Source of the DNA: Leucobacter chromiireducens
GTDB taxonomy: Bacteria; Actinomycetota; Actinomycetes; Actinomycetales; Microbacteriaceae
NCBI RefSeq assembly: GCF_003917135.1
Contig: NZ_RPDI01000001.1
Location: 124,001-188,000, forward strand
Direction: 5' to 3'
Length of the DNA: 64,000 bases
Shown here: in pieces, positions 16,343 to 33,014 of the stretch
Layout of the letters: each line of letters begins with the position of its first letter
Numbering within the stretch: position 1 is the stretch's first letter
Notes under the pieces: generated by a model
What the model saw: only the letters and a program-made list of their open reading frames with translations
The model's database searches: none
Told to the model about the DNA's origin: nothing
Translations under genes and position numbers: made by a program

Positions 16343-16355
16343 TTGGTCAGACCAA
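16343..16355. promoter_or_regulatory. Probable operator for the GntR/FCD regulator
   Basis: TTGGTC-A-GACCAA is a perfect 13-bp palindrome. It holds the TGGTCNGACCA core known for FadR-type GntR regulators. A GntR protein with an FCD-like domain is encoded at the far end of the same gene cluster. The site lies just below the likely -10, where bound protein would block transcription. Confidence 0.65.
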
Positions 16356-16404
16356 GTTGTCGCCACGATCGGCTCCACAGTTAAAGAGATTCATGAAGGA
16401 GATA

Positions 16405-16905: not shown

Positions 16906-16931
16906 TCGTTCGACCAAGGGACGTGAGGATC

Positions 16932-18086
16932 ATGAGCAGCAGGAGACGCGCCGCACTGGCGCTGACCGCGGGGGCCGCGCTTTTCGCGCTGAGCGCCTGC
17001 TCGTCGGGGGACGCAAGCACCGGGGGCGGCGAGGGCGGCGAGGGGGCCATCCCCCTCGGCTACACCGCAACACTGTCCGGAGATTTCGCGAGCTACGGCC
17101 TCGAGATGCGCGAAGGCATCGACCTCGCGATTTCTGAGATCAACGCGGACGGGGGCGTCCTGGGCCGTGACCTCACGACCGAGGTCGTTGACGACGAGGG
17201 CAAGCCGGCGAACGGTCCAGTGATCGCCCAGGAGATGTGCGACAACGCGGAGATCCCAGCGGTGCTGGGCTTCAGCTTTTCGAGCGTCGCGCTCTCCGGA
17301 CTCCCCATCTACACGCAGTGCGGGCTGCCGATCGTGGCCGCGGCTGTGACGTCGCCCGAACTCAGCGGTGCGAGCGATATCTTCTTCCGCACGGTGTTCA
17401 CCGACGCCTACCAGGGCGCGGAAGCCGCGAACTTCATCGCGGAGCACCGCGGCGTGAAGAAGATCGCCGTGCTGTATCAGCAGGACGACTACGGCAAGGG
17501 CGTCGCGGACTCGTTCACCGAGGCGTTCGAGGGGGCGGGTGGCGAGATCACGAGCTCGCAGGCGTACCAGCTGGGCACCGTGAACTTCGGCAGCACCGTC
17601 GACGCGGCACTGAAGGACGCCCCCGACGCGGTGTTCATCGGCGGCTTCTACACGGAGGCTGGCAAGATCGTGAACCAGGTCCGTGACGCGGGCTCTGAGC
17701 TGCCCATCTTCGCCTCGGACGGGGCGGCGAGCCCGCTGTTTCTCGAGCTCGCCGGGGACAATGCCGAGGGCGTCGAGGTCTACTCGGCCTTCTCCGCGAG
17801 CGACCCGCGGCCCGAGTCCGCAGCGTTTGTCGAGGCCTTCACGGCGAAGTATGACAAGGAGCCGACCTCCTGGGCGGCGCTCGCATACGACGCAACGTAT
17901 GTCGCCGCGCAGGGCATCGAATCGGCCGGGAGTACCGACCGCGCCGCGGTCGCCGACGCGATCCGAGCGACCGACGGCTACGCGGGAGCATCAGGCACGA
18001 TCAGCTTCGACGACGAGGGCAACCGTGTTGGCGAGCTCACCTTCCAGCGCGTCGAGGACGGCAAGTTCGTAGTGATGACGGAGTAG
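16932..18086 (+). CDS. Branched-chain-type ABC transporter, substrate-binding lipoprotein
   Basis: A 384-aa periplasmic-binding-protein-like lipoprotein of the LivJ/receptor type. Its signal peptide has the lipobox LSAC with Cys23. The mature part starts IPLGYTATLSGDFASYGLEM and continues with the family pattern GIDLAISEINADGGVLGRDL. These proteins bind branched-chain or other amino acids, amides or urea. The gene lies 26 nt after ridA and heads a complete importer. The ligand is inferred from context to be a gamma-glutamyl or related compound. Confidence 0.88.
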   Translation: MSSRRRAALALTAGAALFALSACSSGDASTGGGEGGEGAIPLGYTATLSGDFASYGLEMREGIDLAISEINADGGVLGRDLTTEVVDDEGKPANGPVIAQEMCDNAEIPAVLGFSFSSVALSGLPIYTQCGLPIVAAAVTSPELSGASDIFFRTVFTDAYQGAEAANFIAEHRGVKKIAVLYQQDDYGKGVADSFTEAFEGAGGEITSSQAYQLGTVNFGSTVDAALKDAPDAVFIGGFYTEAGKIVNQVRDAGSELPIFASDGAASPLFLELAGDNAEGVEVYSAFSASDPRPESAAFVEAFTAKYDKEPTSWAALAYDATYVAAQGIESAGSTDRAAVADAIRATDGYAGASGTISFDDEGNRVGELTFQRVEDGKFVVMTE

Positions 18087-18156
18087 CCCAGGGTGGGGCG
18101 CCGTACGGCGCCCCACCACCGGTGCTCCTCCTCGCCACAGATTACGGAGAAATGTG

Positions 18157-19062
18157 ATGCAGGAAATCATCAACGGACTCGCCGTCGGCGGCATCTACGG
18201 GCTGCTCGCCGTCGCCTTCAGTGTCGTGTACGGCGTGCTCGGCATGGTCAACTTCGCCTTCGGCGAGATCTTCATGTTCGGGGCGTTCGGCGCACTCGTC
18301 GCTGGCCAAACCAACAGCGTCATCGCGGGACAGTCGGTCGACGGCGCCGCGCTGCCCGCGTGGCTCGCGATCCTGATCGGGGTGATCGTCGGCTCGCTGA
18401 TCGGCTGGCTCATCGAACGGATCGCCTACCGGCCGCTGCGCAGCGCGCCGATCCTCTCGATGCTCATCACGGCGATCGCGGTCTCGATGCTGTTGCGAGC
18501 GGTCGCCACCTTCCTGTTCGGTGCCGCGCAGGTGCCCGTGCAACGCCCGGACCTCGGCCCGCCGCTCATGATCCTTGGAGCGCGCGTGCAGCCCATCGAC
18601 GCCGTCGTGCTCGCGGTTGCGGTGCTCGTGACCCTCGCGTTCTGGGCGGTGATTCGCTTCACCCCCATCGGGCGCGCCATCCGCGCGACTGCGGAGGATA
18701 AGGACGCGGCGCGCCTCATGGGGATCGGCGTGGATCGCGTGATCTCCACGACGTTTGTGCTCGGCTCCGCGATGGCGGCGATCGCCGGCCTCCTCTACTC
18801 CCAGCGCTACGGATTCGCCGCGGCGACCATGGGGTTTCTCCCCGGGCTCAAGGCGCTTGTCGCCGCAGTGCTGGGCGGAATCGGGAGTATCCCCGGCGCC
18901 TTCGTCGGTGGCCTCGTGCTCGGGGTCAGCGAGGAGCTCGCGGCCGCGTACGTGCCGCAGGGGTCCGCCTACCGTGACGTTATCGCGTTCGGGATCCTCG
19001 TGATCATCCTGTGGCTCCGCCCGCAGGGCCTGCTCGGCCGTCGAGAGGTGCAGAAGGTCTAA
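18157..19062 (+). CDS. Branched-chain-type ABC transporter, LivH-like permease
   Basis: A 301-aa integral membrane permease with the LivH N-terminus, GLAVGGIYGLLAVAFSVVYG, followed by MVNFAFGEIFMFGAF. GIGSIPGAFVGGLVLG is the conserved LivH C-terminal part. GGAG 7 nt before ATG 18157 favours this start over the adjacent GTG at 18154. It ends 2 nt before the fused LivM-LivG gene. Confidence 0.9.
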   Translation: MQEIINGLAVGGIYGLLAVAFSVVYGVLGMVNFAFGEIFMFGAFGALVAGQTNSVIAGQSVDGAALPAWLAILIGVIVGSLIGWLIERIAYRPLRSAPILSMLITAIAVSMLLRAVATFLFGAAQVPVQRPDLGPPLMILGARVQPIDAVVLAVAVLVTLAFWAVIRFTPIGRAIRATAEDKDAARLMGIGVDRVISTTFVLGSAMAAIAGLLYSQRYGFAAATMGFLPGLKALVAAVLGGIGSIPGAFVGGLVLGVSEELAAAYVPQGSAYRDVIAFGILVIILWLRPQGLLGRREVQKV

Positions 19063-19064
19063 TC

Positions 19065-20924
19065 ATGTCAAACACTCACACCACACCCATCGTCGTGCTG
19101 AAGCCCGATCTCGGGCTGAACCGTTGGCTCTGGCCCGGCGTGTTCCTCGTGCTCGGGCTCATCGCCCCGCTCGTGCTCCCCGGTGACAAGTGGATCCGGG
19201 TGGCAGCACTCGCCCTCGTCTATGTCGCGCTCGCGTCCGGCCTGAACATCCTCGTCGGGCTCACAGGGCTGCTCGACCTCGGCTTCATCGCGTTCTTCAT
19301 CGTCGGCGCCTACACGGCGGCCATATTCACGGTGAGTACGTTTGGGTCACTCCTCGCGGACAATCCCGCGGCGCTTGCCTGGGTGCTCCCAATCAGCGTG
19401 GTGGCCGCCATCGTGTTTGCCGGTATCGCCGGCTCGATCATCGGCTACCCGACGCTCCGCGCTCGCGGGGACTACCTCGCGATCATGACCCTCGCGTTCG
19501 GCGAGATCGTTCGCATCGTCTCGATCAACTGGACGGAGTTCACCGGCGGCGCGGTCGGGATTCGCAACATCCCCTCACTCAGCCTGAGCGGTGGCGCGGT
19601 CCCTCCCACGACCACCTACTACGTGATTCTCACGGTCGTGGTGATCCTCGTGGTCGCGCTGGCCTCGCTCATCGCCTCGCCGGTGGGGCGGGCCTGGGTT
19701 GCGATCCGCGAGGACGAACTCGTGGCCGCGTCCATCGGGATCCGCACCCGCCGCTACAAGCTGCTCGCCTACGTGGTCGGTGCGGCGACGGCCGGCGTGA
19801 TCGGGGTGTTCTTCGCCCACATGAATCAGTTCGTCAACCCAGACAGCTTCACGCTCGAGGACAACTTCATTGTCCTGAGCCTCGTGATCCTTGGCGGCGC
19901 CGGGACACTGTGGGGGCCGATCACTGGCGCGGTGCTGTGGATCTTCTTCCAGGCTGTCGCGAAGGACATTCCCCTGATCCAGGCCCACCCGGAGTTCCGC
20001 ACCGGCATCCTCGCCCTCATCGTCGTGGTGCTGATGATCCTCCGGCCTGGCGGCATCGTCTCCAAGCGGCTCGAACTGACGCGCGCTCGCGGCGGCGCAC
20101 TGCCGCCGGCCGGCACGCTCGAGCCGGCGGCGCACGGTGACAACGCTCCGGCTGCGGGCGAGCCGGTGCTCCGCGTGGCCGAGATGAAGCAGGTGTTCGG
20201 CGGGCTGACCGCGCTGGAGTCGGTCTCGTTCGAGCTGCGCCACGGCGAAGTTCTCGGTCTGATGGGGCCGAACGGTGCGGGGAAGTCGACGCTGCTGAAC
20301 GCGATCTCGGGGGTGACCCGGGCGACCTCAGGCACGATCGAGCTTGCTGGGGAGCGCACCGAGCGGCTCGAATCGAACGCGGTTGCGACCCGTGGCATCG
20401 CGCGGACGTTCCAAACGGTGCGGCTCTTCTGGGACATGACGGTGCTCGAGAATCTGCTCGTCGGTGGCCACTCGCGGCTTGCGGGCTTTGTCCCCAAGTT
20501 CCTCTCCCCGTTCCCGTTCGTCCGCCAGGGCGAGCGCGTGACGGTCGCGGAGGCGGAGGAGATCCTCGCGTTTGTGGACTGCTGGGAGTTCCGTGACCGG
20601 CGGGCCTCCTCGCTCGACGCGTACCAGCAGCGGCGGGTCGAGATCGCGCGGGCGCTCATGACCCGGCCGCGTGTGCTGCTGCTCGACGAGCCAGCCGCCG
20701 GGTTGAACGAGAGCGAGACCCGCGACCTGGCCGCGCTCATTGCGCGGATCCGGGCGCACGGCATCGACGTGATCCTGATCGAGCACGACATGGATCTCCT
20801 GATGGGAGTGTCGGATCGGATTGTGGTGCTCGACCACGGGGTCATCATCGCCGACGGCACCCCCGCCGAAATTCGCACGAATCCAGCGGTGCTGGAGGCC
20901 TACCTCGGGAGTGATGCAGCATGA
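19065..20924 (+). CDS. Fused LivM permease - LivG ATPase
   Basis: A 619-aa fusion of two importer parts. Residues about 1-335 are the LivM-like permease (GLNILVGLTGLLDLGFIAF, and LGGAGTLWGPITGAV near its end). A Pro/Ala-rich linker of about 30 residues follows, then the LivG-type ATPase from about 366. Walker A GPNGAGKST is at 401-409 and Walker B VLLLDEPAAGLNESE is intact. The ABC signature is unusual: LDAYQQ at 517-522, where LivG normally has LPYGQQ or LSYGQQ, so the key glycine is tyrosine. AAGG precedes the ATG. It is translationally coupled to livF. Confidence 0.9.
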   Translation: MSNTHTTPIVVLKPDLGLNRWLWPGVFLVLGLIAPLVLPGDKWIRVAALALVYVALASGLNILVGLTGLLDLGFIAFFIVGAYTAAIFTVSTFGSLLADNPAALAWVLPISVVAAIVFAGIAGSIIGYPTLRARGDYLAIMTLAFGEIVRIVSINWTEFTGGAVGIRNIPSLSLSGGAVPPTTTYYVILTVVVILVVALASLIASPVGRAWVAIREDELVAASIGIRTRRYKLLAYVVGAATAGVIGVFFAHMNQFVNPDSFTLEDNFIVLSLVILGGAGTLWGPITGAVLWIFFQAVAKDIPLIQAHPEFRTGILALIVVVLMILRPGGIVSKRLELTRARGGALPPAGTLEPAAHGDNAPAAGEPVLRVAEMKQVFGGLTALESVSFELRHGEVLGLMGPNGAGKSTLLNAISGVTRATSGTIELAGERTERLESNAVATRGIARTFQTVRLFWDMTVLENLLVGGHSRLAGFVPKFLSPFPFVRQGERVTVAEAEEILAFVDCWEFRDRRASSLDAYQQRRVEIARALMTRPRVLLLDEPAAGLNESETRDLAALIARIRAHGIDVILIEHDMDLLMGVSDRIVVLDHGVIIADGTPAEIRTNPAVLEAYLGSDAA

Positions 20925-21643
20925 ACATGCTTGAGATCAATGAGCTCAACGTGCGCTACGGCGTGGTGCGCGCGGTGCTCGACGCGAGCCTGTCCGTTGA
21001 CGATGGCGAACTCGTCGTCGTGGTCGGGGCGAACGGTGCGGGGAAGAGCAGTCTGCTTCGTGCGGTCGCTGGCCTGAACAAGCACCGGGGCAGCATCAGT
21101 TTCAGGGGTGCCTCGATCGCCGGGTTGCGCGCGGAGCAGCGGGTGAAGCGCGGGCTTTCCCTGGTGCCGGAGGGCCGCCACATCTTCGGGCGCATGAGCG
21201 TGCTGGAGAATCTGCAGGTCGCGCACTGGGGTGCGAAGACGAACCTCGGCGCCGGCATCGCGGATGTCTTCGCGCGCTTCCCGCGGCTCGAGGAGCGGAA
21301 GCATCAGGTCGCCGCCACGCTGTCCGGGGGCGAGCAGCAGATGCTCGCGCTCTCGCGCGCGCTGATCCGGCAGCCGCGCCTCCTGATGCTCGACGAGCCG
21401 TCGATGGGGCTCGCGCCGAAAATCGTCGCGCAAATGTTTGAGATCATTAGTGAGATCAATGCCGCCGGGACGAGTGTGCTGCTCATCGAGCAGAATGCGC
21501 GCATGGCACTCTCAATTGCGCATCGTGGTTATCTCATGGAAACCGCTAAGGTCTCCGGAGGTGGTGATGCGCGTGTGATGCTTGAAGACGAGCGACTGCA
21601 CGAGGCCTATTTCGGCAAGAGCGCCGAGGGCGAAGGCGAGTAG
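20921..21643 (+). CDS. Branched-chain-type ABC transporter, LivF-like ATPase
   Basis: A 240-aa ATPase, the second nucleotide-binding subunit. Walker A GANGAGKSS, LVPEGRHIFGRMSVLENL (a LivF hallmark), signature LSGGEQQMLALSRAL and Walker B LLMLDEPSMGLAPK are intact. The ATG overlaps the stop of the fusion gene (ATGA). It would pair with the LivG half whose own signature is degenerate, so the two ATP sites should be unequal. Confidence 0.92.
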   Translation: MNMLEINELNVRYGVVRAVLDASLSVDDGELVVVVGANGAGKSSLLRAVAGLNKHRGSISFRGASIAGLRAEQRVKRGLSLVPEGRHIFGRMSVLENLQVAHWGAKTNLGAGIADVFARFPRLEERKHQVAATLSGGEQQMLALSRALIRQPRLLMLDEPSMGLAPKIVAQMFEIISEINAAGTSVLLIEQNARMALSIAHRGYLMETAKVSGGGDARVMLEDERLHEAYFGKSAEGEGE

Positions 21644-21702
21644 CGACGTCGCGGACTCCGCGCTCGTGCGCGGACCGCGGATGAACGAGATTGGTGGACG
21701 AA

Positions 21703-22428
21703 ATGGACTGGGGTTCGATGAACCGGGGCGAAACGCTCTCGGTACCTGACCGGCTCTCGGTCGACCTGGAGCGGTTGATCCTTGAGGGTGAACTCGCGCC
21801 GGGCGAGAAGCTCCCAGCCGAGCGCGAGCTCGCGCAGCTCCTCAGCGTGTCTCGCGTCTCCGTGCGCGAGGCACTCCGGGAGCTCGAAAACCGTGGGCTG
21901 ATCGACCGGAAGCCCGGCAGGGGGACGATTATCCTCGCCCCCGGCGCCGTGGCGAGCGCGTCCGACGACGTCATCGAGGCGTTCTCCGCGATGCGCACGG
22001 AGCTCACGGACATCATGGAGCTGCGCGCCATCGTGGAGCCGCCGATCGCCCGGATCACCGCGGCTCGCGCCCAACCGCGCGACCTGACGCAGCTCGAGGA
22101 GCTCGTGAAGGCGATGGAGGTCGACGTCACGAAGGAGCGGTACGCCGAACTCGATCGAGCCTTCCATCAGGCGATCGCCCAGTACACGCACAACCCACTG
22201 CTCTCCCTCATCAACGAGCAGATCGCCAACCAGATCGCACCGAGCCGCGCGCGCAGGTATCAGACCAAGGCACGCAGGCAGGCGTCGAGCGTCGCGCATC
22301 GACGCATCTACGAGGCGATCGCGGCGCGCGACGGTGCGCGTGCCGAGGAGGAAGCCCGCGCGCACGTGCTCGACATCAGTCGGGAGATCGCCAAGGCGGT
22401 CGACGAGCACGGGGGAGCGCGATCATGA
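21703..22428 (+). CDS. GntR family regulator with FCD-type domain
   Basis: A repressor-type regulator of about 241 aa. The GntR winged HTH is at the N-terminus (LEGELAPGEKLPAERELAQL and VSRVSVREALRELENRGL), followed by an all-helical ligand-binding domain with the FCD pattern (MELRAIVEPPIARITAA, DRAFHQAIAQYTHN). These sense organic acids or amino acids. The start is uncertain among TTG 21691, GTG 21694, ATG 21703 and ATG 21718. Its stop overlaps the next gene. It probably controls this whole cluster through the palindrome at 16343-16355. Confidence 0.88.
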   Translation: MDWGSMNRGETLSVPDRLSVDLERLILEGELAPGEKLPAERELAQLLSVSRVSVREALRELENRGLIDRKPGRGTIILAPGAVASASDDVIEAFSAMRTELTDIMELRAIVEPPIARITAARAQPRDLTQLEELVKAMEVDVTKERYAELDRAFHQAIAQYTHNPLLSLINEQIANQIAPSRARRYQTKARRQASSVAHRRIYEAIAARDGARAEEEARAHVLDISREIAKAVDEHGGARS

Positions 22429-23966
22429 CCACCACTGCGCGCCCGCGCGGCGCCATCTCCACCTCGCACCACCTCGCCACCGAGGCCGGGGCCGCCGTGC
22501 TCGCCGCTGGCGGCAACGCGATCGACGCGGCACTCGCCGCTGCCGCGACCCTGTGCGTCGTGTACCCGAACAATGTGGCGCTCGGCGGCGACCTCGTCGC
22601 GCTCGTGCGCAGCCCCGACGGCGAGGTGCGCTTCTTGAACGCCACGGGCACCGCGCCTGCGGCGCAGACGCTCACCGCGCTCCGCGAGCGGCACGGCGAG
22701 GCGCTCCCGCTGCGCGGGATCGACACGGTCACCGTGCCGGGCGGGGTCTGCGGCTGGAACTCACTGCACGAGTACGGGGCGACCCGGCCGTGGGCGGCGC
22801 ACTTCGAGGCCGCGATCCGCCACGCTGAGGAGGGGTTCCCCAACTCGCGCTCGGTGGCGGCCGCGCTGATTGAAGACCGGGCGACGCTCGAGCAGGATCC
22901 CGGCGCGCGCGCCGTGTTCTACCCGGGCGGTGAGCCGATCGCCGAGGGGGAGACCCTCGCGCAGCCGGCGCTCGCCGGGACACTCCGCCGCATCGCCGCG
23001 GGTGGCTCAGCCGAGTTCTACGAGGGCGAGACGGCCGAGCGCTGGATCGCGGGTCTGCAGCGGCTCGGCTCACGAATCACGACGCAAGACGCGATCGACT
23101 ATCAGGGGTTCTGGGCTGCACCGCTCGAGGGGGCGTTCGGCGACGTGCGCGTGCTCACCGGGCCACCGAACACCTCGGGCTTCATGCTGCTGCGCGCCCT
23201 CGACGCGGTCGCCGCGGGCATCGAGGATCCGCTCGGGGCGGGGGCAGGCGAGCTCGCGCGCGCCTTCCGCGACGCCAACGCGATCCGCGCGAGCCACCTC
23301 TCGGACCCGACCTTCGGTGGCGCCACCGGCGAGGAGCTCGTCGCGCTCTCCGCTCCAGCGTTCCCGACCGCCGGTGCCGCGAAGGCGAGCGGGGACACCG
23401 TCGGCTTCGCCGCGGTGAGCGAGGACGGCTGGGCCGTCTCGTTCATCAACTCCGTGTATTGGAGCTTCGGCGCGCACATCCTCGAACCCGAGACCGGGAT
23501 CCTGTTCCAGAACCGGGGCACCTCGTTCTCCCTCGATCCGGCTTCCCCGAACGCGTTCGCGCCGGGGAAGCGTCCGCGGCACACCCTCATGCCGGTGCTC
23601 ATCCTGCGCGGCGACGAGCTCGCCTGGGTGCCTGCGACGATGGGCGGGGCCGCGCAGCCGCAGATCCACGCCCAGTTGCTGCTGCGCGCTCTCGCCGGTG
23701 CGACGCCGCACGAGGCGACGCACGCGCCGCGCTGGATGGTGGAGGAGTGGCTCGGGATGGGGCCGGCGCGGGTCATGGCCGAGTCCGATGTGCCGCAGCA
23801 CACGCGCGACGCGATCGCCGCGGCTGGCTTCGCGATCACCGAGGTCGCCCCGTACACGGAGGATCTCGGCCACTCAAACGTGATCCGCGTGACGCGAGAC
23901 GGCTACGAGGCCGCGAGCGATCCGCGGTCGGACGGTTCGGCCATCGTGGTGCACGCGTCAGGGTGA
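22425..23966 (+). CDS. Gamma-glutamyltransferase family hydrolase, no signal peptide
   Basis: A 513-aa N-terminal-nucleophile hydrolase of the gamma-glutamyltranspeptidase family. GNAIDAALAAAATLCVVYPN and ALGGDLVALV form the large-subunit core. Self-cleavage would expose Thr325 in SGDTVGFAAVSEDG. GKRPRHTLMPVLIL is the conserved small-subunit part. Classical enzymes are secreted, but the N-terminus here (MTTTARPRGAISTSHH) has no signal peptide, so it should act in the cytosol on imported substrates. It is coupled by ATGA to the GntR gene and lies in the importer cluster. Confidence 0.85.
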   Translation: MTTTARPRGAISTSHHLATEAGAAVLAAGGNAIDAALAAAATLCVVYPNNVALGGDLVALVRSPDGEVRFLNATGTAPAAQTLTALRERHGEALPLRGIDTVTVPGGVCGWNSLHEYGATRPWAAHFEAAIRHAEEGFPNSRSVAAALIEDRATLEQDPGARAVFYPGGEPIAEGETLAQPALAGTLRRIAAGGSAEFYEGETAERWIAGLQRLGSRITTQDAIDYQGFWAAPLEGAFGDVRVLTGPPNTSGFMLLRALDAVAAGIEDPLGAGAGELARAFRDANAIRASHLSDPTFGGATGEELVALSAPAFPTAGAAKASGDTVGFAAVSEDGWAVSFINSVYWSFGAHILEPETGILFQNRGTSFSLDPASPNAFAPGKRPRHTLMPVLILRGDELAWVPATMGGAAQPQIHAQLLLRALAGATPHEATHAPRWMVEEWLGMGPARVMAESDVPQHTRDAIAAAGFAITEVAPYTEDLGHSNVIRVTRDGYEAASDPRSDGSAIVVHASG

Positions 23967-24034
23967 GCGGGGCGGCCTCCCGGCACCCCCCAGCACTCAG
24001 TACCCCGCCCACGCACTTCCAGAATCGACGCTTC

Positions 24035-24805
24035 ATGACTCAGCCTGCTCGCTCCAGCTTCCTCGTTCTCGCCCTGCTCGGGGCACTCACTGGACTCCTC
24101 TCGGGGGTGTTCGGGATCGGTGGCGGCGTCGTCCTCGTCCCGATGCTCGTGATGTTCCTCGGCTTTCAACAGCGGCTCGCGGCCGGCACCTCGGTCGCCG
24201 CGATCCTGCCCGCCGCAGTGGTGGGCGGCATCGGCTACGCGGTCCAGGGCAACGTCGACTGGATCACGGCGATCGCGCTGGCGGCCGGCGTGATCGTTGG
24301 CGCGCAGATCGGCAGCTACCTGCTCTCGAAGGTGCCGACCGGGTTCCTGCGCTGGCTGTTCATGGGCTTCCTCGCTGCGGTGGTGGTGAGCCTCTGGTTC
24401 GTTGTCCCGCAGCGCGACGCCGAGATCGAGAAGAGCACGCTCATCATCGTGCTGCTCGTGGTCACCGGTCTCGTCACCGGCGTACTGTCGGGGCTGCTCG
24501 GCGTCGGCGGCGGGGTCGTCGTGGTCCCCGTGCTCATGTTCTTCTTCGGCGCGAGCGACCTCATCGCGAAGGGCACCTCGCTCATCATGCTCATCCCCGG
24601 CTCGATCTCGGGCACGATCGGCAACATGCGCCGCCGCAACGTTGACCTTCGCGCCGCCGCGATCCTCGGGATCGCCGCGAGCGTGCTGTCGCCCGTCGGG
24701 TCGGTCATCGCGACGCACATCCCGCCGTTCTGGTCGAACGTCGCGTTCTCGCTGCTGCTCGCCTTCGTGCTCGGGCAGATGCTCTGGAAGACGATCAAGA
24801 AGTAG
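24035..24805 (+). CDS. TauE/SafE family membrane exporter
   Basis: A 256-aa membrane protein of the sulfite/sulfoacetate exporter family. The internal duplication typical of the family is plain: GVFGIGGGVVLVPMLVMF near residue 23 and GLLGVGGGVVVVPVLMFF near residue 155. It has about eight hydrophobic segments. Coming after the glutamyltransferase, it may remove a product such as an organic anion or sulfur compound. ATG 24035 gives the normal length; much longer open frame upstream is the shadow of the previous gene. No clear ribosome site is seen. Confidence 0.88.
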   Translation: MTQPARSSFLVLALLGALTGLLSGVFGIGGGVVLVPMLVMFLGFQQRLAAGTSVAAILPAAVVGGIGYAVQGNVDWITAIALAAGVIVGAQIGSYLLSKVPTGFLRWLFMGFLAAVVVSLWFVVPQRDAEIEKSTLIIVLLVVTGLVTGVLSGLLGVGGGVVVVPVLMFFFGASDLIAKGTSLIMLIPGSISGTIGNMRRRNVDLRAAAILGIAASVLSPVGSVIATHIPPFWSNVAFSLLLAFVLGQMLWKTIKK

Positions 24806-24815: not shown

Positions 24816-25772
24816 TCAGCTCCTGCTGAGCAGACGACCACCGCGCTTGCGCGCCTCGACGATGAGGTCGGTGCGCAGGTGGGTCACGTCGCTCGACCAG
24901 ATCGGGTGCGCGAGCAGGGCGTAGAGCTCGGCGTGTGTGGTCGCAGTGAGATTCAGCACGAGCTGGTAGTCGCCGGTGATGGCCGCGGCGTATCGCACCT
25001 CCGGCCAGGTGCCGAGCTCGTGCCCGAGCGCCTCGACCCGGTGCGGCGGCACCTGGACCCACAGCATCGACTCGACCGGGTAACCGACGAGCGCGGGCTC
25101 GACGAGGGCTCGAATCGAGCACTGGCCGGAGCCGAGGAGCCACTCGATCCTGCGTGCCACGGAGGTCTCGCTCATCTTCGCGCGGCGCGCGAGCGCCTCG
25201 ATGCTGACGCGGCCGTCCTCCTGCAGCGCTCGCAGGATCTCACCGTCCTTGGGACCGCGGCTCTCCGGAATGGTCCACTCGGTGCGGTCGTTCCCGGTCC
25301 TGGCGAGGAGCGTCTGCTCCTCGGCCGCGGTGAGCGCGCCGCTGCGCCACCCACGGATCGTCTTGAAGTACTTCAGCACCGGAAACGCGGCAAAGCTCCT
25401 GAGCCCCGCGGTTGCTGGCAACTGCAGGGTCAGGAGCTCGCGAAGGTTCTCGTGGTAGCCGATCTCCGCGACCACCTCGGCGCGCCCCGTGGTGAGGTAG
25501 CAGAAGGTGACGTCGGCGCGCTGCGCGAGCGCCTCGCTGCTGATGAGGGCGGTGCCGGCCGTGCTCTCGCACGCGAGGATCATCTGGTGCTCGTAGTGCG
25601 TCACCGCGGCGACGACCACGCGCCCGCTCTCGAGGAGATCCGAGCCGTGCCGCGCGACCGTGCGCTCGGGCTCGCCGAGCGCCTCCGCGATCTTGCGCCA
25701 GGAGGCCCGGCCATCCACCTGGAGCGCGGCCACGATGCGCAGCTGCAAGTGATTCAGCCCTGGTGTGGCCAT
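24816..25772 (-). CDS. Lrp/AsnC-type regulator with two HTH domains
   Basis: A 318-aa regulator made of two Lrp-like units. The first HTH is at about residues 5-50 (LQLRIVAALQVDGRASWRKI) with an AsnC-like ligand domain after it. The second HTH is at about 175-220 (ILRALQEDGRVSIEALARRA) with a second ligand domain that ends the protein. Classical Lrp proteins are 150-170 aa with one unit, so this is a tandem form. GAGGAGG precedes the ATG. It is 48 nt downstream of the amidase on the same strand and ends 10 nt from the convergent TauE gene. Confidence 0.85.
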   Translation of the reverse strand: MATPGLNHLQLRIVAALQVDGRASWRKIAEALGEPERTVARHGSDLLESGRVVVAAVTHYEHQMILACESTAGTALISSEALAQRADVTFCYLTTGRAEVVAEIGYHENLRELLTLQLPATAGLRSFAAFPVLKYFKTIRGWRSGALTAAEEQTLLARTGNDRTEWTIPESRGPKDGEILRALQEDGRVSIEALARRAKMSETSVARRIEWLLGSGQCSIRALVEPALVGYPVESMLWVQVPPHRVEALGHELGTWPEVRYAAAITGDYQLVLNLTATTHAELYALLAHPIWSSDVTHLRTDLIVEARKRGGRLLSRS

Positions 25773-25820
25773 CTCGCGGTCCTCCTCAACCGATCGTGCT
25801 CGGACCCGAGCAGCAGTAGT

Positions 25821-27236
25821 CTAGCGACGCTGCACGAGTTGTTTCGGTGGCAGTTTTGCAAAGCCAGTCGCCTGCTCATACGCCGCCGCCCACTGCAGCA
25901 GTGCGGGGTCGCGGTAGTGGTTCGCGGCGAGCTGCCAGCCGACCGGAAGCCCCTCGGCGGTGAAGCCGCCAGGCATCGCGAGCACGGGCAGGCTCGTCGC
26001 CGAGAGCACGCACGCGGAGCGCATCCAGTCGAGGTACGTCCGCGCGGCGACGCCGGCGATCGACTCCGGCCACCGCCAGCTCGCGTCGAAGGGGAGCACC
26101 TGCGCTGCCGGGCTGAGGAACGCGTCGTAGCGCGCAAAGAACGCCTGCACCGCGGCCTCCAGCCGGGTGCGCGCGGCCTGCGCCGAGATGAGGTCTGCGG
26201 CGCTCAGCTGCTGGCCGGTCTCGACGTTCCAGATCACCTCAGGTTTGATCACGTCACGGTGCGTGGCGAGGAGCGGCCCGATCCCCGTCGCAAAGTCGTA
26301 GGCGCGCGTCACCTGGAAGACCTCGTCGGCGTCGGAGAAATCAATGCTCGCCTCCTCGAGGATCGCGCCGGCGTCCTCGAACACCTGCAGCTGCGTGCGC
26401 AGCACGTCGACGATCTCCGCCTCGACCGGGATCCCGATCCCGAAGTCGAAGCTGTAGCCGATGCGTACCCCGCGCAGATCGGGGAGCGGCGTGCCGAAGT
26501 CGGCCGGCGTGAGCGGGCTCGGGTTCGGCAGGGTGGTCGGCCCCGTGCTTGCGCGCATGAACAGCGCGAGGTCCTCGACGCTCCGCGCCATCGGGCCGGA
26601 GCGTGCGAGCCAGGTGTACGCGTTCGTCGCGCCCTCCATCGGGATCACCCCGTAGGAGGGGCGCAGCCCGTACACGTTGCAGAAGGACGCCGGGATCCGG
26701 AGCGAGCCGCCCATGTCCGAGCCGTCGCCGAACGCCTGGATGCGCGAGGCGACCACCGCAGCGACGCCGCCGGAGGAGCCGCCGGCCGAGCGGTCGGGGG
26801 CGTACGGGTTCGTCGTCGTGCCGAAGAGGTCGTTGAACGTGTGCGACCCCGCGCCAAACTCGGGCACGTTCGTCTTCCCCGTGCGGATCGCGCCGGCCGC
26901 CGCGAGCCGCGCGATCTGCAGATCGTCCCGCTCAGGCGTGTGGTGCTCAAGGGCGAGCGAACCCTGCGTCGAGCGCAGCCCAGCGGTGTTGAACGTGTCC
27001 TTGTGCGTCATCGGGAGCCCGTGCAGGATCCCCGTCGGCTCACCGTGTGCCGTGCGCTCATCGGCCAGCGCCGCGAGCTCCCTCGCGCGCTCGAAGTCGG
27101 TCGTGATCACCGCGTTCACCGGTGCGTTGCGGTCCTCGATCGCGGCGATGTGGCTCTCGAGCGCCTCACGGGCCGAGAGTTCGCGGCGACGGATGAGGTG
27201 CGTGACCTCGACTGCGCTCAGGTTTTGGATGTCCAT
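25821..27236 (-). CDS. Amidase signature family enzyme
   Basis: A 471-aa amidase that hydrolyses a C-N bond, probably in the cytosol as no signal peptide is present. The Ser-Ser-Lys triad is visible: Lys79 in LPMTHKD, Ser154/155 in AGGSSGG, and nucleophile Ser178 in DMGGSLR. The C-terminal part has MPGGFTAEGLPVGWQL. The ATG at 27236 is chosen because the sequence beyond belongs to the divergent promoter region. The natural substrate is unknown. With the M20 enzyme across the promoter it suggests breakdown of an acylated or amidated compound. Confidence 0.9.
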   Translation of the reverse strand: MDIQNLSAVEVTHLIRRRELSAREALESHIAAIEDRNAPVNAVITTDFERARELAALADERTAHGEPTGILHGLPMTHKDTFNTAGLRSTQGSLALEHHTPERDDLQIARLAAAGAIRTGKTNVPEFGAGSHTFNDLFGTTTNPYAPDRSAGGSSGGVAAVVASRIQAFGDGSDMGGSLRIPASFCNVYGLRPSYGVIPMEGATNAYTWLARSGPMARSVEDLALFMRASTGPTTLPNPSPLTPADFGTPLPDLRGVRIGYSFDFGIGIPVEAEIVDVLRTQLQVFEDAGAILEEASIDFSDADEVFQVTRAYDFATGIGPLLATHRDVIKPEVIWNVETGQQLSAADLISAQAARTRLEAAVQAFFARYDAFLSPAAQVLPFDASWRWPESIAGVAARTYLDWMRSACVLSATSLPVLAMPGGFTAEGLPVGWQLAANHYRDPALLQWAAAYEQATGFAKLPPKQLVQRR

Positions 27237-27452
27237 CGGTATCGGATGCCTTTCGCCGTTGAAATGCGGATGCCCCCACCCTGCCGGAACTCGCACGCGC
27301 CAAGAAGTGGAAATCCGTGGAATGCGCCAGAACGGGGAGACTCGCCACATCCGTGGCCGATTCGCCCAGGCCCTTGTCGACGGGCAGGCTTCTCCCGCAG
27401 GGTGATCGAAAGATTTCTCGTCTTCATCGCATGAGATGCAAAGGAGCACAAC

Positions 27453-28208
27453 ATGCCGGCAACTGCGCCGTACCGATTTGCTGACCCCGGATCCACCGAC
27501 ATCTGGGCGATCGCGAACTCGCCGATCCTGTGGATCTTCGCCCTCGGGGTGTTCGCGGTGATCTTCCTCCAGACCTTCCTGTACATCCGCGCAGCGCGCA
27601 CCGCCGCCGCGGGGATCGACATGCCGCTCAAGGAAATTCGCGAGTCGTACCGGGCCGGCGCGGTCGCCTCGATCGGCCCATCGCTCGCGGTCGTGCTCGT
27701 CGCGATCGCCCTGCTCGCCCTGTTTGGCACGCCGGCCGTGCTCGTGCGCATCGGCCTCATCGGCTCCGCCGCGACGGAGACCGCCTCCGCAGGCATCGCC
27801 GCGACGAGCATGGGCGCGGAGCTCGGCGCTGACTCCTACACGCAGCAGGTGTTCGCGGTCGCCTTCATGGCGATGAGTCTCTCCGGCGGCATGTGGATGC
27901 TCTGCACGCTGCTGCTCACCCCGATCCTGAAGCGTGGCTCGCAAACGCTCAGCAAGCGAAACCCCGCCATCATGGCGCTGATCCCCGCCGCCGCGCTGCT
28001 CGGCGCGTTCTCGATGCTCGCCGTTGCGGAGACCGGGAAGTCCTCGCTCCACCTGCTCCTCGTGCTCGTCTCGGCTGGGGTGATGGCGCTGTGCCTGCTC
28101 ATCGCGAAGCTGCTGCACCTCAAGTGGCTCAAGGAGTGGGCGCTCGGCTTCTCGATCCTCATCGCCCTCTTCGTCGCATTCCTCCTCCACACGCCCGTCG
28201 CCGCATAA
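27453..28208 (+). CDS. DUF5058-like integral membrane protein, transporter candidate
   Basis: A 251-aa membrane protein with about six hydrophobic segments (residues about 25-47, 73-95, 105-125, 133-155, 170-190 and 225-245). It resembles the DUF5058 family by length and by pattern (NSPILWIFALGVFAVIFLQ, then ESYRAGAVASIGPSLAV). That family has no established function. AAAGGAG precedes the ATG. The next gene is also a membrane protein 18 nt on, and hydrolase and CoA genes follow, so the two are likely subunits of a substrate carrier. That function is an inference from context only. Confidence 0.7.
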   Translation: MPATAPYRFADPGSTDIWAIANSPILWIFALGVFAVIFLQTFLYIRAARTAAAGIDMPLKEIRESYRAGAVASIGPSLAVVLVAIALLALFGTPAVLVRIGLIGSAATETASAGIAATSMGAELGADSYTQQVFAVAFMAMSLSGGMWMLCTLLLTPILKRGSQTLSKRNPAIMALIPAAALLGAFSMLAVAETGKSSLHLLLVLVSAGVMALCLLIAKLLHLKWLKEWALGFSILIALFVAFLLHTPVAA

Positions 28209-28226
28209 GCACCTAGGAGCATCGCA

Positions 28227-28976
28227 ATGGAACTCACCACCACACACACTCCAGCCGCGGCCGCCACCGCCGACGCCGCGATGAGCCGGTTCGACCGGCA
28301 GACGAGCCGGTACGGATCGGCCACCATGATCCTCGGCCTCCTGCTCTCCCTCGCCGGGCCGTTCTACCTCTTCTTCTTCACCGACCTCGGGCTCAGCTGG
28401 CCGATGGTGCTCACCGCGTTCCTTGCCGTCGCGGCCACCTTCGGCGTGTTCTGGGTCGTTGAACCCGTCACCTACTATCCGATTCTCGGCTCGGCGGCGA
28501 TGTACCAGGCCTTCATGATCGGCAACATCTCGAACAAGCTGCTCCCGGCCGCAATCGTCGCGCAGTCCAGCATCGGGGCGAAGCCCGGCTCGCGCCGCGG
28601 CGATCTCGCCTCCGTGATGGCGATCTGCGGCGCGGCAACCGTGCACCTCGTGAGCCTGCTCGTGTTCGTCGGCCTGCTCGGCAGCTGGCTCGTGTCCGTG
28701 ATCCCCGCCGACCTCATCGAGGTGGCGCGCCTCTACATCCTGCCCTCGCTGATGGGCGCCGTGCTCGTGCAGGCCATCGTGTCGATGAAGCAGCTCCGCC
28801 CTACCCTCATCGCGATCGGGCTCGCGCTCATCATGCAGTTCGTCGTGGTCCCCGTCGCTCCCGCGCTCGGCATGTTCGCGACCGCGATCGTCGTGCTCCT
28901 CGCCATTGTGCTCTCGCTGGTCCTGCGTGATCGCGCGAGCGCCCAGCCGGCCGAGGACGACGCCCTGGTCAACTAG
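28227..28976 (+). CDS. Integral membrane protein paired with the DUF5058-like protein
   Basis: A 249-aa protein I cannot assign to a known transporter family. Its N-terminal 30 residues are polar (many Thr and Ala). Seven or so hydrophobic segments follow, beginning at about residue 34 (MILGLLLSLAGPFYLFFF). A conserved-looking cytoplasmic or re-entrant stretch, QSSIGAKPGSRRGDLASVMA, lies near the middle. The C-terminus is acidic. It has the same size and lies in the same operon as the preceding membrane protein, so a heteromeric carrier is plausible. CTAGGAG lies before the ATG. Confidence 0.75.
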   Translation: MELTTTHTPAAAATADAAMSRFDRQTSRYGSATMILGLLLSLAGPFYLFFFTDLGLSWPMVLTAFLAVAATFGVFWVVEPVTYYPILGSAAMYQAFMIGNISNKLLPAAIVAQSSIGAKPGSRRGDLASVMAICGAATVHLVSLLVFVGLLGSWLVSVIPADLIEVARLYILPSLMGAVLVQAIVSMKQLRPTLIAIGLALIMQFVVVPVAPALGMFATAIVVLLAIVLSLVLRDRASAQPAEDDALVN

Positions 28977-29012
28977 CGCGATGCCGCGCACGAGCGAAAC
29001 GGAGCACCACAC

Positions 29013-30227
29013 ATGCTGAACACGGAACTGACCGCGGCCGAGCTGGCGCAGCTGCACGACAGCTACCGCCACCTCCACCGCACCCCAGAGCTCTCGATGC
29101 AGGAGCACGGCACCGCGGAGTTCATCGAGACCCGGCTCGGGGAGCTGGGGATCGAACACTTCCGCTGCGGCGGGACCGGCGTCGTCGGGATCCTGCGGAA
29201 CGGGGATGGGCCGGTCGTCGGCTTCCGCGCGGACACCGACGGGCTTCCCATCCGCGAGGACACCGGTGCCGACTACGCCTCAACCGCGACCGGCACCCTG
29301 CCGGACGGCACCGTCGTGCCCGTGATGCACGGGTGCGGGCACGATACGCACGTCGCCGCCGCGCTCGCTGCCGCCGCGCTGCTCGTCCGGCAGCCGGAGC
29401 GGTGGCGCGGCACGGTCGTGTGGGTGTTCCAGCCGGGGGAGGAGACCGCGGCCGGGGCCGCCGCCATGGTGGCCGACGGCCTCTGGGAGCGCGCCCCGCG
29501 CCCCACGGTGGTGCTCGGGCAGCACGTGTTCCCGGCGGCACCGGCCGGCAGCATCGCGCTCGCGACGGGGCCGGCGATGGCGATGGCCGATGCCCTGCGG
29601 ATCACGGTGCACGGCAGGCAGTCGCACGGCTCGCAGCCGCAGGACTCGATCGACCCGATCGTGCTCGGCGCGCACATGGTGGCCCGGCTGCAGACCATCG
29701 TGTCGCGTGAGCTCTCGCCGCAGGCGCCCGCCGTCGTCACGTGCGGCACCTTCCACGCAGGTCTGAAGGAGAACATCATCCCGGCGGAGGCCGAGTTCAC
29801 CCTGAACATCCGGACGCTCGGGACGGACGTCCGCGACCACGTCCTCGGCGCGATCACGCGCATCGTCAACGCCGAGGCCGACGCGTCGGGCGCCCCTCAC
29901 CCCACCATCGAGGAGATCTACCGCTTCCCCCAGCTCACGAACGACGAGCGCGAGTCGGAGGAGGTACGCGCCGCGCTCGAGCGTGAGCTCGGCGGGGGGA
30001 ACGTGTTGCGGATCCCGCCGGCTATGGGGTCGGAGGACTTTGGCACGCTGCCCGACAGCATCGGCGTGCCCGGCGTGTACTGGTTCTTCGGCGGCTTCGC
30101 CGCGGACGTCGCCGAGCCCCCGGTCAACCACTCCCCGTACTTCCTCCCGGACCTTGAGCCGACGCTCAGCACGGGAGTCCGCGCGGCCGTCGCCGCGATC
30201 GGGCATTACCTCGCCGCGGGCAAGTGA
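29013..30227 (+). CDS. M20 family metallo-amidohydrolase
   Basis: A 404-aa M20D-type amidohydrolase, related to N-acyl-amino acid and hippurate hydrolases. HRTPELS is at residues 22-28. The metal-site motif HGCGHDTH is at 106-113. GVPGVYWFFGG and NHSPYF near the end carry the C-terminal histidine. It probably removes an acyl group from an N-acylated substrate in the cytosol. GGAG is 8 nt before the ATG. It is part of the operon starting at 27453. Confidence 0.9.
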   Translation: MLNTELTAAELAQLHDSYRHLHRTPELSMQEHGTAEFIETRLGELGIEHFRCGGTGVVGILRNGDGPVVGFRADTDGLPIREDTGADYASTATGTLPDGTVVPVMHGCGHDTHVAAALAAAALLVRQPERWRGTVVWVFQPGEETAAGAAAMVADGLWERAPRPTVVLGQHVFPAAPAGSIALATGPAMAMADALRITVHGRQSHGSQPQDSIDPIVLGAHMVARLQTIVSRELSPQAPAVVTCGTFHAGLKENIIPAEAEFTLNIRTLGTDVRDHVLGAITRIVNAEADASGAPHPTIEEIYRFPQLTNDERESEEVRAALERELGGGNVLRIPPAMGSEDFGTLPDSIGVPGVYWFFGGFAADVAEPPVNHSPYFLPDLEPTLSTGVRAAVAAIGHYLAAGK

Positions 30228-30261
30228 TCCGCGTCGTCAGCACGCAAGAAAGGTCAGCAGG

Positions 30262-31482
30262 ATGAACCAGGGAACACTGGATGGGACGTTGGTGGTGGAT
30301 CTCTCGCGTGCACTCGCGGGGCCGCACGCCGGACAGATGCTGGGGGACCTTGGTGCGCGCGTCATCAAGGTGGAGACGCCGGCTGGCGGCGACGATACGC
30401 GGTCGTGGGGGCCTCCCTTCGTTCCCGGCAGCGACGGGGGCAGCTACTCGACGTACTTCCTGTCCTGCAACCGCAACAAGGAGTCGATCGCGCTGGATCT
30501 GAAAAGCGAGGACGGCCGCGCGGTACTCACCGACCTCCTGGCCAGGGCCGACGTGCTGATCGAGAACTTCCGCACGGGGGTGATGGATCGGCTGGGGTTC
30601 TCGACGGCAGCGCTCGCCGAGCTGAACCCGCGACTCGTGCAGCTCTCCATCACGGGATTTGGGCACGATGGCCCGGAGGGCGGCCGCGCCGGCTACGACC
30701 AGATCGTGCAGGGTGAGGCCGGACTGATGTCGCTCACGGGCTCCGGGCCGGACGACCCGCAGCGCGTCGGCACGCCGATCGCCGACCTGCTGGGCGGGAT
30801 CCACGGGGTCGTCGGCGTGCTTGCCGCCCTCGTTGATCGCACGTGCACCGGCCGCGGCCGCGTGGTGCGCACCTCGCTGCTCTCCTCCGTGGTCGGGGTC
30901 CACGCGTTCCAGGGAACGCGTGCGACGGTCGCGGGAGAGCACCCGCGTGCGCAGGGGAACCACCACCCCTCGATTGCGCCCTACGGTCTCTTCCGCTGCC
31001 GGGACGGTGCCGTGCAGATGAGTGTGGGGAGCGAGCGCCTCTGGCAGGCGTTCTGCGCGGAGTTCGGCGTGCAGGCCGACGCGTCGGGGTTCGGATCGAA
31101 CGCCGAGCGCGTGGCGTCGCGTGAGGCCACGATTCGTGCCGTCGAAGCGGCGTTCGCCGACAGTGACACCGAGCAGTTGCTCACCAGACTCGCGGCCGCG
31201 GGGATCCCGGCCGGCAAGGTGCGGAGCCTGCCCGAGGTGTACGCGTGGGATCAGGTGAGGTCGCAGGGTCTCGTCGTCGAGGTCGAACACGCGGCGCTCG
31301 GCACGATCTCGCTTCCCGGGCCGGCGCTGCGCTTCTTCGACGTCGACGCGGCGGGGGAGACCGAGCGCGCGCGCACGGCGCACCAGGCGCCGCCGACGCT
31401 CGATCAGCACGGGGACGAGATCCGCGCCTGGCTCGCGGAGACCGCGGATCGAACGCCCGCCGCGACGGGGGCGCTCGCGTGA
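30262..31482 (+). CDS. Class III CoA-transferase (CaiB/BaiF family)
   Basis: A 406-aa CoA-transferase that moves CoA between carboxylic acids. The N-terminus has VVDLSRALAGPHAGQMLGDL, then GARVIKVETP. The probable catalytic aspartate is Asp146 in GYDQIVQGEAG. IAPYGLFRCRDG is the conserved mid-C-terminal part. It would activate the acid released by the amidase or M20 enzyme. The ATG at 30262 follows AAAGG. Its stop overlaps the next start (GTGA), so the two are translated together. Confidence 0.9.
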   Translation: MNQGTLDGTLVVDLSRALAGPHAGQMLGDLGARVIKVETPAGGDDTRSWGPPFVPGSDGGSYSTYFLSCNRNKESIALDLKSEDGRAVLTDLLARADVLIENFRTGVMDRLGFSTAALAELNPRLVQLSITGFGHDGPEGGRAGYDQIVQGEAGLMSLTGSGPDDPQRVGTPIADLLGGIHGVVGVLAALVDRTCTGRGRVVRTSLLSSVVGVHAFQGTRATVAGEHPRAQGNHHPSIAPYGLFRCRDGAVQMSVGSERLWQAFCAEFGVQADASGFGSNAERVASREATIRAVEAAFADSDTEQLLTRLAAAGIPAGKVRSLPEVYAWDQVRSQGLVVEVEHAALGTISLPGPALRFFDVDAAGETERARTAHQAPPTLDQHGDEIRAWLAETADRTPAATGALA

Positions 31483-33014
31483 CCGCCGTGCGGCGCTCCG
31501 CGCGCGAGCTCATCGAGCTCATCGCGGACCCTGGGAGCTACGTGAGCTGGGACACGACGCCCGCGCAGCCGGATCTCGGCGACGCCTACCGCGCCGAGCT
31601 CGCGGTCGCGGCGGAGAAGAGCGGGGTCGACGAGTCGATCATCACCGGCGAGGCGCGCGTCGACGGGCGACGGGTGGTGCTCATCGCCTGCGAGTTCCGC
31701 TTCCTCGCCGGGTCGGTCGGCACGGCGGCTGCCGAGCGCTTCGTGCGCGCGATGGAGCGAGCCACCGCCGAACGCCTGCCGGTGCTGGCGTCGCCGGCCT
31801 CCGGCGGCACCCGGATGCAGGAGGGCACCGTCGCGTTCGTCGCGATGGTGAAGATCGCCGCGGCGGTTGCGGCGCACAAGGCCGCCTGCCTGCCCTACCT
31901 GGTGTACCTGCGCCACCCCTCGACGGGCGGCGCGCTCGCATCGTTCGGATCCCTCGGGCAGGTCACGGTCGCGGAGCCCGGGGCGCTCGTCGGCTTCCTG
32001 GGCCCGCGCGTCTATGAAGCGCTCATGGGGGAGACATTTCCTTCAGGTGTGCAGGTCGCTGAGAATCTCGCGCGGCTTGGCCTCATCGATGGCGTACTCC
32101 CCGCGCGGGAACTCCGCGACGTGGTAGGGCGAACACTCCGCATCCTTGAGCGGCCCACGCATCAGCAACTCGTCGAGCTCGCGGAGACACCGGAGTCCGC
32201 GCACGAGCGTCCGGCAGGATCCGCGGACGCCTGGGCCTCGATCACCCGGACGCGTGATCCGCGCCGCCCGGGCCTCCGCGAACTGCTCCGCACAGCCGCG
32301 ACCGATGTCGTGCCGCTCTCTGGCACAGGTCAGGGGGAGCGTGATCCCGGGCTCACGCTGTGCCTCGCCCGCTTCGGCGGCGCTCCCGCCGTCGTCGTGG
32401 GACAGGATCGGCGCTCCCAACGCACGCGTGCCCCGCTCGGCCCCGGAGCGCTGCGCGCCGCTCGCCGCGCGATGCGCCTCGCCGACGACCTCCAGCTCCC
32501 GCTGATCACCGTGATCGATACGCCGGGCGCCGCGCTCTCACGGGCGGCGGAGGAGGGCGGTCTCGCGTCGGAGATCGCGCACTGCCTCGCTGACCTCGCC
32601 ACGCACCGCGGGCCCACCCTCTCGATCCTGCTCGGCGAGGGCACGGGCGGCGGCGCGCTCGCGCTGCTGCCGGCCGACCGGACGCTCGCGGCCGAGCACG
32701 CGTGGCTGTCGCCGCTTCCCCCGGAGGGGGCGTCGGCGATCGTGCACCGGGACACGGCGCACGCGCCGGAGCTCGCGGCGCAGCAGGGCGTCGCGACCGG
32801 CAACCTCGTCGCGCACGGCATCGTGGACCGCGTGATCGCGGAGCACCCGGACGCATCGGACGAGCCGGAGGCTTTCAGCCGCCGGATGGGCGACGCGATC
32901 GCGCAGGAGCTCGCGGCCCTTCAGCTGCAGAACGAGGAGCACCGCCGGCTGCGCCGCCACGACCGCTACCGCCGTCCTGGGGCGCTCGGGAGCGGGAGCC
33001 TGACTGCCGTCTAG
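31479..33014 (+). CDS. Fused acyl-CoA carboxylase carboxyltransferase
   Basis: A 511-aa protein with both carboxyltransferase halves in one chain. The N-terminal half is AccD-like (SPASGGTRMQEGTVAFV, HPSTGGALASFGS). The C-terminal half is AccA-like (ITVIDTPGAALSRAAEEGG, LLGEGTGGGALALL). The AccD zinc ribbon is absent. It could carboxylate or decarboxylate the CoA ester made by the preceding CoA-transferase. No biotin carboxylase is adjacent; the one at 53224-54990 could serve it. A malonate decarboxylase-like role is an alternative. The stop TAG shares CTAG with the convergent gene. Confidence 0.82.
   Translation: MTAVRRSARELIELIADPGSYVSWDTTPAQPDLGDAYRAELAVAAEKSGVDESIITGEARVDGRRVVLIACEFRFLAGSVGTAAAERFVRAMERATAERLPVLASPASGGTRMQEGTVAFVAMVKIAAAVAAHKAACLPYLVYLRHPSTGGALASFGSLGQVTVAEPGALVGFLGPRVYEALMGETFPSGVQVAENLARLGLIDGVLPARELRDVVGRTLRILERPTHQQLVELAETPESAHERPAGSADAWASITRTRDPRRPGLRELLRTAATDVVPLSGTGQGERDPGLTLCLARFGGAPAVVVGQDRRSQRTRAPLGPGALRAARRAMRLADDLQLPLITVIDTPGAALSRAAEEGGLASEIAHCLADLATHRGPTLSILLGEGTGGGALALLPADRTLAAEHAWLSPLPPEGASAIVHRDTAHAPELAAQQGVATGNLVAHGIVDRVIAEHPDASDEPEAFSRRMGDAIAQELAALQLQNEEHRRLRRHDRYRRPGALGSGSLTAV

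Follow-up and report, generated by a model that had tools for sequence, protein, structure and literature searches.

What does a pair of small, adjacent membrane proteins do beside a set of hydrolases and coenzyme A (CoA)-related enzymes in Leucobacter chromiireducens? The cassette in question occupies positions 24816-33014 of the stretch analysed here (64,000 nucleotides [nt] of contig NZ_RPDI01000001.1, assembly GCF_003917135.1, positions 124,001 to 188,000 of the forward strand; hereafter 'the window'). Its two membrane genes, encoding a DUF5058 protein of 251 amino acids (27453..28208, plus strand) and a partner of 249 amino acids without a family model (28227..28976, plus strand), are followed by a gene for an M20 amidohydrolase of 404 amino acids (29013..30227, plus strand). 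We propose, with a probability of about one in two, that a single carrier, with DUF5058 and its partner as its two obligate subunits, imports N-acylated amino acids, which the M20 enzyme then cleaves inside the cell. The pair (putative carrier subunits 1 and 2) would act as a secondary carrier for amino acids bearing an acyl group on the nitrogen and a free alpha-carboxylate; the M20 enzyme, presumed to be cytoplasmic, would split the imported compound into an amino acid and an acid; and the Lrp-type regulator that is often present would sense an amino acid. Both products would vary by lineage, as reflected in the accessory genes.

To our knowledge, the uptake of N-acylated amino acids is poorly known. 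If correct, the proposal would give the domain DUF5058 a name and a direct assay, and would describe a two-subunit carrier that stays with one hydrolase in bacteria and archaea alike; its neighbours point to concrete candidate substrates, N-acylglycines first. Our search of the open-access literature returned no mention of DUF5058 or PF16481 (subscription journals and preprints lay outside the search) and nothing on ErtE, on hippurate with glycine cleavage, or on an N-acyl amino acid permease.

The case begins with linkage. A scan of genome contigs gave 211 DUF5058 relatives, the best 80 of which are the loci compared here; more distant phyla were reached via plasmid records only. An earlier note on this DNA, made from the sequence alone, had asked whether the two membrane genes always occur together, and they do so in every locus that can be judged. 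In 78/80 contig loci, the partner sits immediately 3' of DUF5058 in the same orientation (728-837 nt from match centre to match centre), and in the remaining two (L048 and L086) the contig ends 94 and 168 nt past the DUF5058 match. Combined searches of the plasmid collection found both genes side by side in 12/12 records, which come from Arthrobacter, Paenarthrobacter, Paracoccus (three), Vibrio and six haloarchaea. In a survey of 199 genomes from the window's family, DUF5058 exceeds the cut-off in six, these are also the six that have the partner, at adjacent coordinates (6/6), and none has one gene alone; one further genome holds a DUF5058-like fragment, under the cut-off, with three stops. 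A draw of 201 genomes from the genus Corynebacterium yielded DUF5058 in five, all of them with the partner; in one of these (L115, 8748-11530), two transposase-like reading frames stand between the two genes.

The pair is also sparsely distributed. The 3.2-Mb source genome has a single DUF5058 match, 96% identical to the DUF5058 of Leucobacter sp. PH1c and L. chromiireducens records, and matches over the cut-off occur in 5/296 genomes of the class and 3/296 of the phylum, the window's own included. Because this distribution is patchy, it suggests that the cassette has spread horizontally. Damaged copies were seen on plasmids: in Vibrio diabolicus (L016, 8900-10444), DUF5058 has an internal stop and lies among insertion sequence genes, and in Paenarthrobacter and Arthrobacter (L013, 6681-9500; L012, 8900-11500) the partner looks frame-shifted; L012 keeps an M20 gene, and the other two have none nearby.

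The companions of the pair, counted by tblastn over all 80 loci, fall into a core and accessories (gene calling had yielded no DUF5058 gene in L085 and none of any kind in L016). In 72 loci, an M20 amidohydrolase is found no more than 3.5 kb away, in 70 of them downstream on the same strand; on plasmids, M20 adjoins the pair in 8 of the 10 loci examined, and the two without it (L013 and L016) are among those with broken pairs. An amidase is found within 6 kb in 52 loci (28 divergent upstream, 20 same-strand downstream and four same-strand upstream), and a relative of the Lrp regulator with two helix-turn-helix (HTH) stretches within 7 kb in 48. Class III CoA-transferases occur in 16 loci (14 over 450 bits; the 16 include a weak match of 156 bits in L067 and a partial one of 150 bits in L089), AccDA-type carboxyltransferases likewise in 16 (15 over 400 bits; L089 is counted at 79 bits), both together in 15, and N-carbamoyl-amino-acid hydrolases in 16. 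The core is the membrane pair plus M20, amidase and Lrp are frequent, and the CoA-transferase and carboxyltransferase are accessories, because each is present in at most 16 of the 80 loci. The association of the pair with M20 and often with an amidase, as the earlier note had it, is borne out; its idea of CoA activation and (de)carboxylation as a general step of the pathway is not. Label changes on a DUF5058 tree numbered 10 for CoA-transferase plus carboxyltransferase, nine for amidase, five for glycine cleavage and three for N-carbamoyl hydrolase (a quick tree of 90 rows, with L008 left out because it duplicates locus L049).

The same counts bear on a second assignment, in which the transported solutes would be amides, ureido compounds or short peptides, the amidase and the N-carbamoyl hydrolase the primary enzymes and M20 a secondary one. 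The window itself has both amidase and M20, and the 52 loci with amidase and 16 with N-carbamoyl hydrolase speak for this view, but M20 is the most constant enzyme and, bar one amidase match beside L143, the sole cassette enzyme in the archaeal and Paracoccus loci. We consider this assignment unlikely. An opposite role, in which the two proteins export the freed acid or amino acid, or serve the hydrolase as a membrane enzyme or receptor, draws on the fact that the direction of transport is not readable from sequence and on other transporters near some loci (of the major facilitator superfamily in L050 and L083, and a match below the cut-off to an amino acid transporter model in L053). Those transporters, however, turned up in isolated loci, in contrast to the pair, which is as constant as the substrate's own carrier would be; moreover, where a catabolic cassette has one constant carrier, it generally serves uptake, which counts against export. 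This role appears improbable to us, and the membrane pair may instead be an uptake system for acylated amino acids.

The nature of the substrate is suggested by the M20 active site. The closest solved relative of the window enzyme is the N-alpha-acyl-glutamine aminoacylase 6SLF (289 bits, the next being 167; 40.5% identity). As section 10 of one review describes its active-site residues, N251 and R264 hold the alpha-carboxylate, D301 binds the glutamine side chain directly and D340 reaches the glutamine amide through water (PMC7209930). We compared 83 M20 proteins longer than 350 amino acids, taken from one cluster and the small cluster c151 in 92 loci plus the window, a few of them not next to the pair. 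All 83, the window's included, keep the zinc ligands C105, H107, E141, H168 and H370 (6SLF numbering), and all keep Glu140, the alpha-carboxylate binders N251 and R264, and D340. By contrast, D301 is kept in two and replaced in 81 (Tyr 43, Asn 12, Ser 11, Thr 8, Gly 6, Phe 1). The window enzyme is thus like 6SLF in family, zinc site and alpha-carboxylate site, and unlike it in the residues for the glutamine side chain: D301 is Tyr and N191 is Ala. Because the alpha-carboxylate site is kept and D301 is mostly replaced, the substrate is expected to be an N-acylated amino acid, usually other than glutamine, whose carboxylate is free, and the M20 enzyme probably cuts acylated amino acids. Where the earlier note had left the choice between an N-acyl and an amide compound, the conserved alpha-carboxylate site favours an N-acyl amino acid.

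The kinship to 6SLF raises a more specific possibility, since that enzyme releases body odour: the pair might be the sought importer of N-alpha-acyl-glutamine odour precursors in skin corynebacteria, an importer given as unknown in the relevant parts of two reviews (PMC12609316 and PMC7209930). This is very improbable. DUF5058 is present in just the five of 201 Corynebacterium genomes mentioned above, and D301, the residue that binds glutamine, is lost from nearly all M20 proteins compared. AgaA-like M20 proteins are so common (184 of the 201 Corynebacterium genomes at E 1e-80; 903 plasmid records at E 1e-40) that AgaA likeness alone says little. Genome G745, with a 95% identical aminoacylase, gave no DUF5058 match; this was a search of a lone genome and is weak as a negative, although the same search did find DUF5058 in five sister genomes.

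Under the proposed import of N-acyl amino acids, residue 301 and the neighbouring genes may indicate which amino acid is released. A tyrosine at 301 would fill the glutamine pocket, which would favour a small side chain, that of glycine for example. With M20 proteins more than three genes away from the pair dropped (80 left), residue 301 is Ser or Thr in 15 of the 16 loci with an N-carbamoyl hydrolase, against 4 of the 64 others, and Tyr in 11 of the 15 loci with CoA-transferase and carboxyltransferase and in most loci outside the N-carbamoyl-hydrolase group. Because that group is largely one clade, the link between residue 301 and the N-carbamoyl hydrolase is a correlation with few independent origins. 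In such loci, the amino acid would perhaps be glutamate-like or carbamoylated; the N-carbamoyl hydrolase of the Arthrobacter-locus representative L043 scores 489.3 against the ErtE model (N-carbamyl-L-glutamate amidohydrolase), below the cut-off of 520.

Glycine would be the amino acid where a glycine cleavage operon adjoins the cassette. In five of the six haloarchaeal plasmids, the trio of DUF5058, partner and M20 lies next to glycine cleavage genes together with lpdA and, depending on the species, glyA, lipA or pdxS; gene order and orientation vary between genera, so that closeness is kept while the layout changes. The sixth haloarchaeal stretch (L143) has no glycine cleavage genes and several enoyl-CoA hydratase genes. 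Next door in four of the six loci is a gene annotated as a TRIC cation channel, the L014 copy of which belongs to Pfam Gly_transporter (PF03458), presumably the former UPF0126. UPF0126 proteins are important for glycine use in 11 bacteria, according to a passage of one review (PMC12173739). Among the actinobacterial loci, L007 (of the window's family), L065 and L083 have a gcvP-gcvT-gcvH set next to the cassette; loci L034, L055 and L071, with a gcvT-like match and neither gcvP nor gcvH in range, were left out. With one operon per genome of ~4 Mb, ~0.4 of ~88 loci would be expected to have a gcv operon in range, and the three observed are unlikely to be due to chance (Poisson ~0.01, worked by hand with relatedness ignored). 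As a wider generalisation, and one that we advance tentatively, the pair may represent a new class of two-subunit carriers dedicated to N-acylated amino acids and shared by Actinomycetota, Proteobacteria and haloarchaea, in which the amino acid can be read from the neighbours and from M20 residue 301.

The two membrane proteins themselves match no Pfam transporter family. DUF5058 matches PF16481 over the whole profile (1-222 of 222; 217.5 bits against a gathering cut-off of 28.2; E 2.3e-64) and has no NCBIfam match; for the partner, neither Pfam nor NCBIfam gave a family up to E 0.1. Run against Pfam, 77 partner proteins share no common family, the commonest match occurring in 11 members and the best, at E 0.0076, being at chance level. 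Nor did any profile search place either protein in a non-transport family; by the earlier note, such a placement would have refuted its proposal. Both proteins are polytopic by hydropathy, and in DUF5058 the positive charge alternates between loops as in an N-out protein (positive-inside pattern). The partner has a conserved segment, EPxxYxPxLGxxxxYxxFxxGNI, within its most conserved residues, 79-105 (E-P-x-x-Y-x-P-I-L-G...M-Y-Q-A-F-M-I-G-N-I-x-N-K-L). This stretch lies under the hydropathy threshold for a membrane helix, has many conserved polar residues and is recognisable by eye in haloarchaea and Paracoccus; we take it as a candidate substrate or ion site. A pattern search of viral contigs found no relative of either protein.

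Several results, on companions, on co-divergence and on structure, weigh against the carrier as proposed. Eight of the 80 loci have no M20 in range, of which L048 lies at a contig edge and L071 contains another pair that has an M20 to itself. In L089, no more than a 49-bit M20 remnant is seen, before the partial CoA-transferase; in C. otitidis (L051), the pair has no nearby M20 and chorismate synthase adjoins; and the same lack was seen in L038, L045, L068 and L076 at the tblastn sensitivity used. The glycine link is a minority trait (gcvP within 9.5 kb in 2/80 loci), and the pocket residue of glycine-linked M20 enzymes is not uniform, being Tyr in L065 and L083 and Gly in L007, L014, L017, L018 and L019. 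The mirror-tree correlation is 0.878 for the pair (80 loci) and 0.879 for the partner and Lrp (48 loci), with a partial correlation of 0.60 for the pair given M20. Since the partner and Lrp co-diverge as closely as the pair, the signal indicates inheritance as a cassette and not contact; and since the mirror tree does not set the pair apart from the other cassette genes, the heteromer of DUF5058 and its partner is postulated from their co-occurrence.

On the structural side, one sequence search of the PDB gave no relative and another gave two weak local matches (best E 0.0094), none convincing. The partner, modelled from 77 sequences (predicted local distance difference test [pLDDT] 76.6, predicted template modelling score 0.54), had nothing under E 0.001 by Foldseek (best E 1.8), and its best VIA-align hit had Z 5.2 and a root-mean-square deviation of 3.9 over 79 residues, an outcome that speaks neither for nor against a known transporter fold. 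DUF5058 was modelled from a single sequence without an alignment, at a pLDDT of 56.4. A common origin of the two subunits is not backed by hhalign, which found no homology between them (probability 1.5%, from shallow alignments).

A carrier gene next to an intracellular amidohydrolase is a familiar arrangement; the putative DUF5058-partner carrier itself is not, as far as the open-access literature searched shows. AbgAB/AbgT serves the uptake and cleavage of p-aminobenzoyl-glutamate, its carrier gene adjoining M20 amidohydrolase genes, and so has the same outline as the present cassette. AbgT, however, is one polypeptide of a named family, whereas neither DUF5058 nor its partner matches a Pfam transporter family. 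Escherichia coli YjiG/YjiH, beside the isoaspartyl dipeptidase IadA, are likewise two small adjacent membrane genes with an amide-bond hydrolase, but their products have 153 and 227 amino acids, as opposed to 251 and 249 here, and YjiG is annotated as of the Gate family. Kinship to that family was considered from a short-motif likeness seen by eye. It is unsupported by any match to Pfam Gate (YjiG/YjiH, SpmA/B kind), the sole criterion used: none was found at E 1 among the 77 partner proteins, nor in the four partner and three DUF5058 distant members scanned.

The remaining genes of the window cassette complete the arrangement that the earlier note had described, and coordinates confirm its gene order, sizes, strands, spacing and overlaps. 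On the minus strand lie an Lrp/AsnC-type regulator of 318 amino acids (24816..25772), with two HTH_AsnC-type stretches and one AsnC_trans_reg ligand-binding domain by Pfam, and an amidase-signature hydrolase of 471 amino acids (25821..27236; Pfam Amidase, 308 bits), divergent from the membrane pair. The 216-bp divergent intergenic region (27237..27452) is where, from the coordinates, both promoters are expected; it contains only two imperfect inverted repeats, ~100 nt apart, and no operator was identified in it. Downstream of M20, on the plus strand, follow a class III (CaiB/BaiF) CoA-transferase of 406 amino acids (30262..31482; PF02515, CoA_transf_3, 374 bits) and a fused AccD/AccA-type carboxyltransferase of 511 amino acids (31479..33014; PF01039, Carboxyl_trans, plus PF03255, ACCA). 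From DUF5058 onward, the plus-strand genes are separated by 18, 36 and 34 nt, except for the final two, which share 4 nt (GTGA). Pfam thus upholds the enzyme families named in the earlier note, as well as DUF5058; its interpretation as a whole is partly supported.

Finer assignment by NCBIfam reached the curated cut-off for M20 alone among the seven cassette proteins (TIGR01891, 266.6 against 153.75), and the matches listed for the regulator, amidase, CoA-transferase and carboxyltransferase all fall under theirs. The best match of the amidase is PRK07486 (428.5 bits, cut-off 465), and the CoA-transferase scores 322.6 against 750 for the succinate-glutarate CoA-transferase equivalog. The carboxyltransferase scores 166.7 against 317.45 for AccD (TIGR00515) and 155.1 against 357 for AccA (PRK05724). 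Malonate decarboxylase (MdcA, MdcD/MdcE) combines a CoA-type transferase with an AccD/AccA-like decarboxylase, without biotin genes, and the window's CoA-transferase and carboxyltransferase have the same layout. Against the beta and gamma subunits of malonate decarboxylase, however, the carboxyltransferase scores 47.5 (cut-off 278.15) and 35.6 (cut-off 237.15), and it is nearer AccD/AccA by score. Where these two accessories adjoin, as in the window, the freed acid would be worked up as a CoA thioester: the transferase may activate it and the carboxyltransferase decarboxylate (or carboxylate) it. The target of the window amidase may be an amide form of the substrate.

Some further neighbours were noted. 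A block of Lrp, carboxyltransferase and CoA-transferase seems to be mobile as a unit, lying beside the amidase in L024 and L028 and ~7-10 kb from the pair in L033. A C45/AAT-type hydrolase is found near the cassette in L098 and L015 (Pfam AAT), with cluster mates in L044 and L086. Locus L070 falls with Arthrobacter in the DUF5058 tree, yet its record bears the title Vibrio cholerae strain 35D; the assembly is probably mislabelled or contaminated. Upstream of the cassette, window positions 12777-24805 hold an ABC importer of the amino acid type (SBP_bac_3, permease and ATPase), a branched-chain-type ABC importer, a gamma-glutamyltranspeptidase and a TauE/SafE gene, and this order is partly kept in loci L020 and L021 (clusters c5, c23, c78 and c52).

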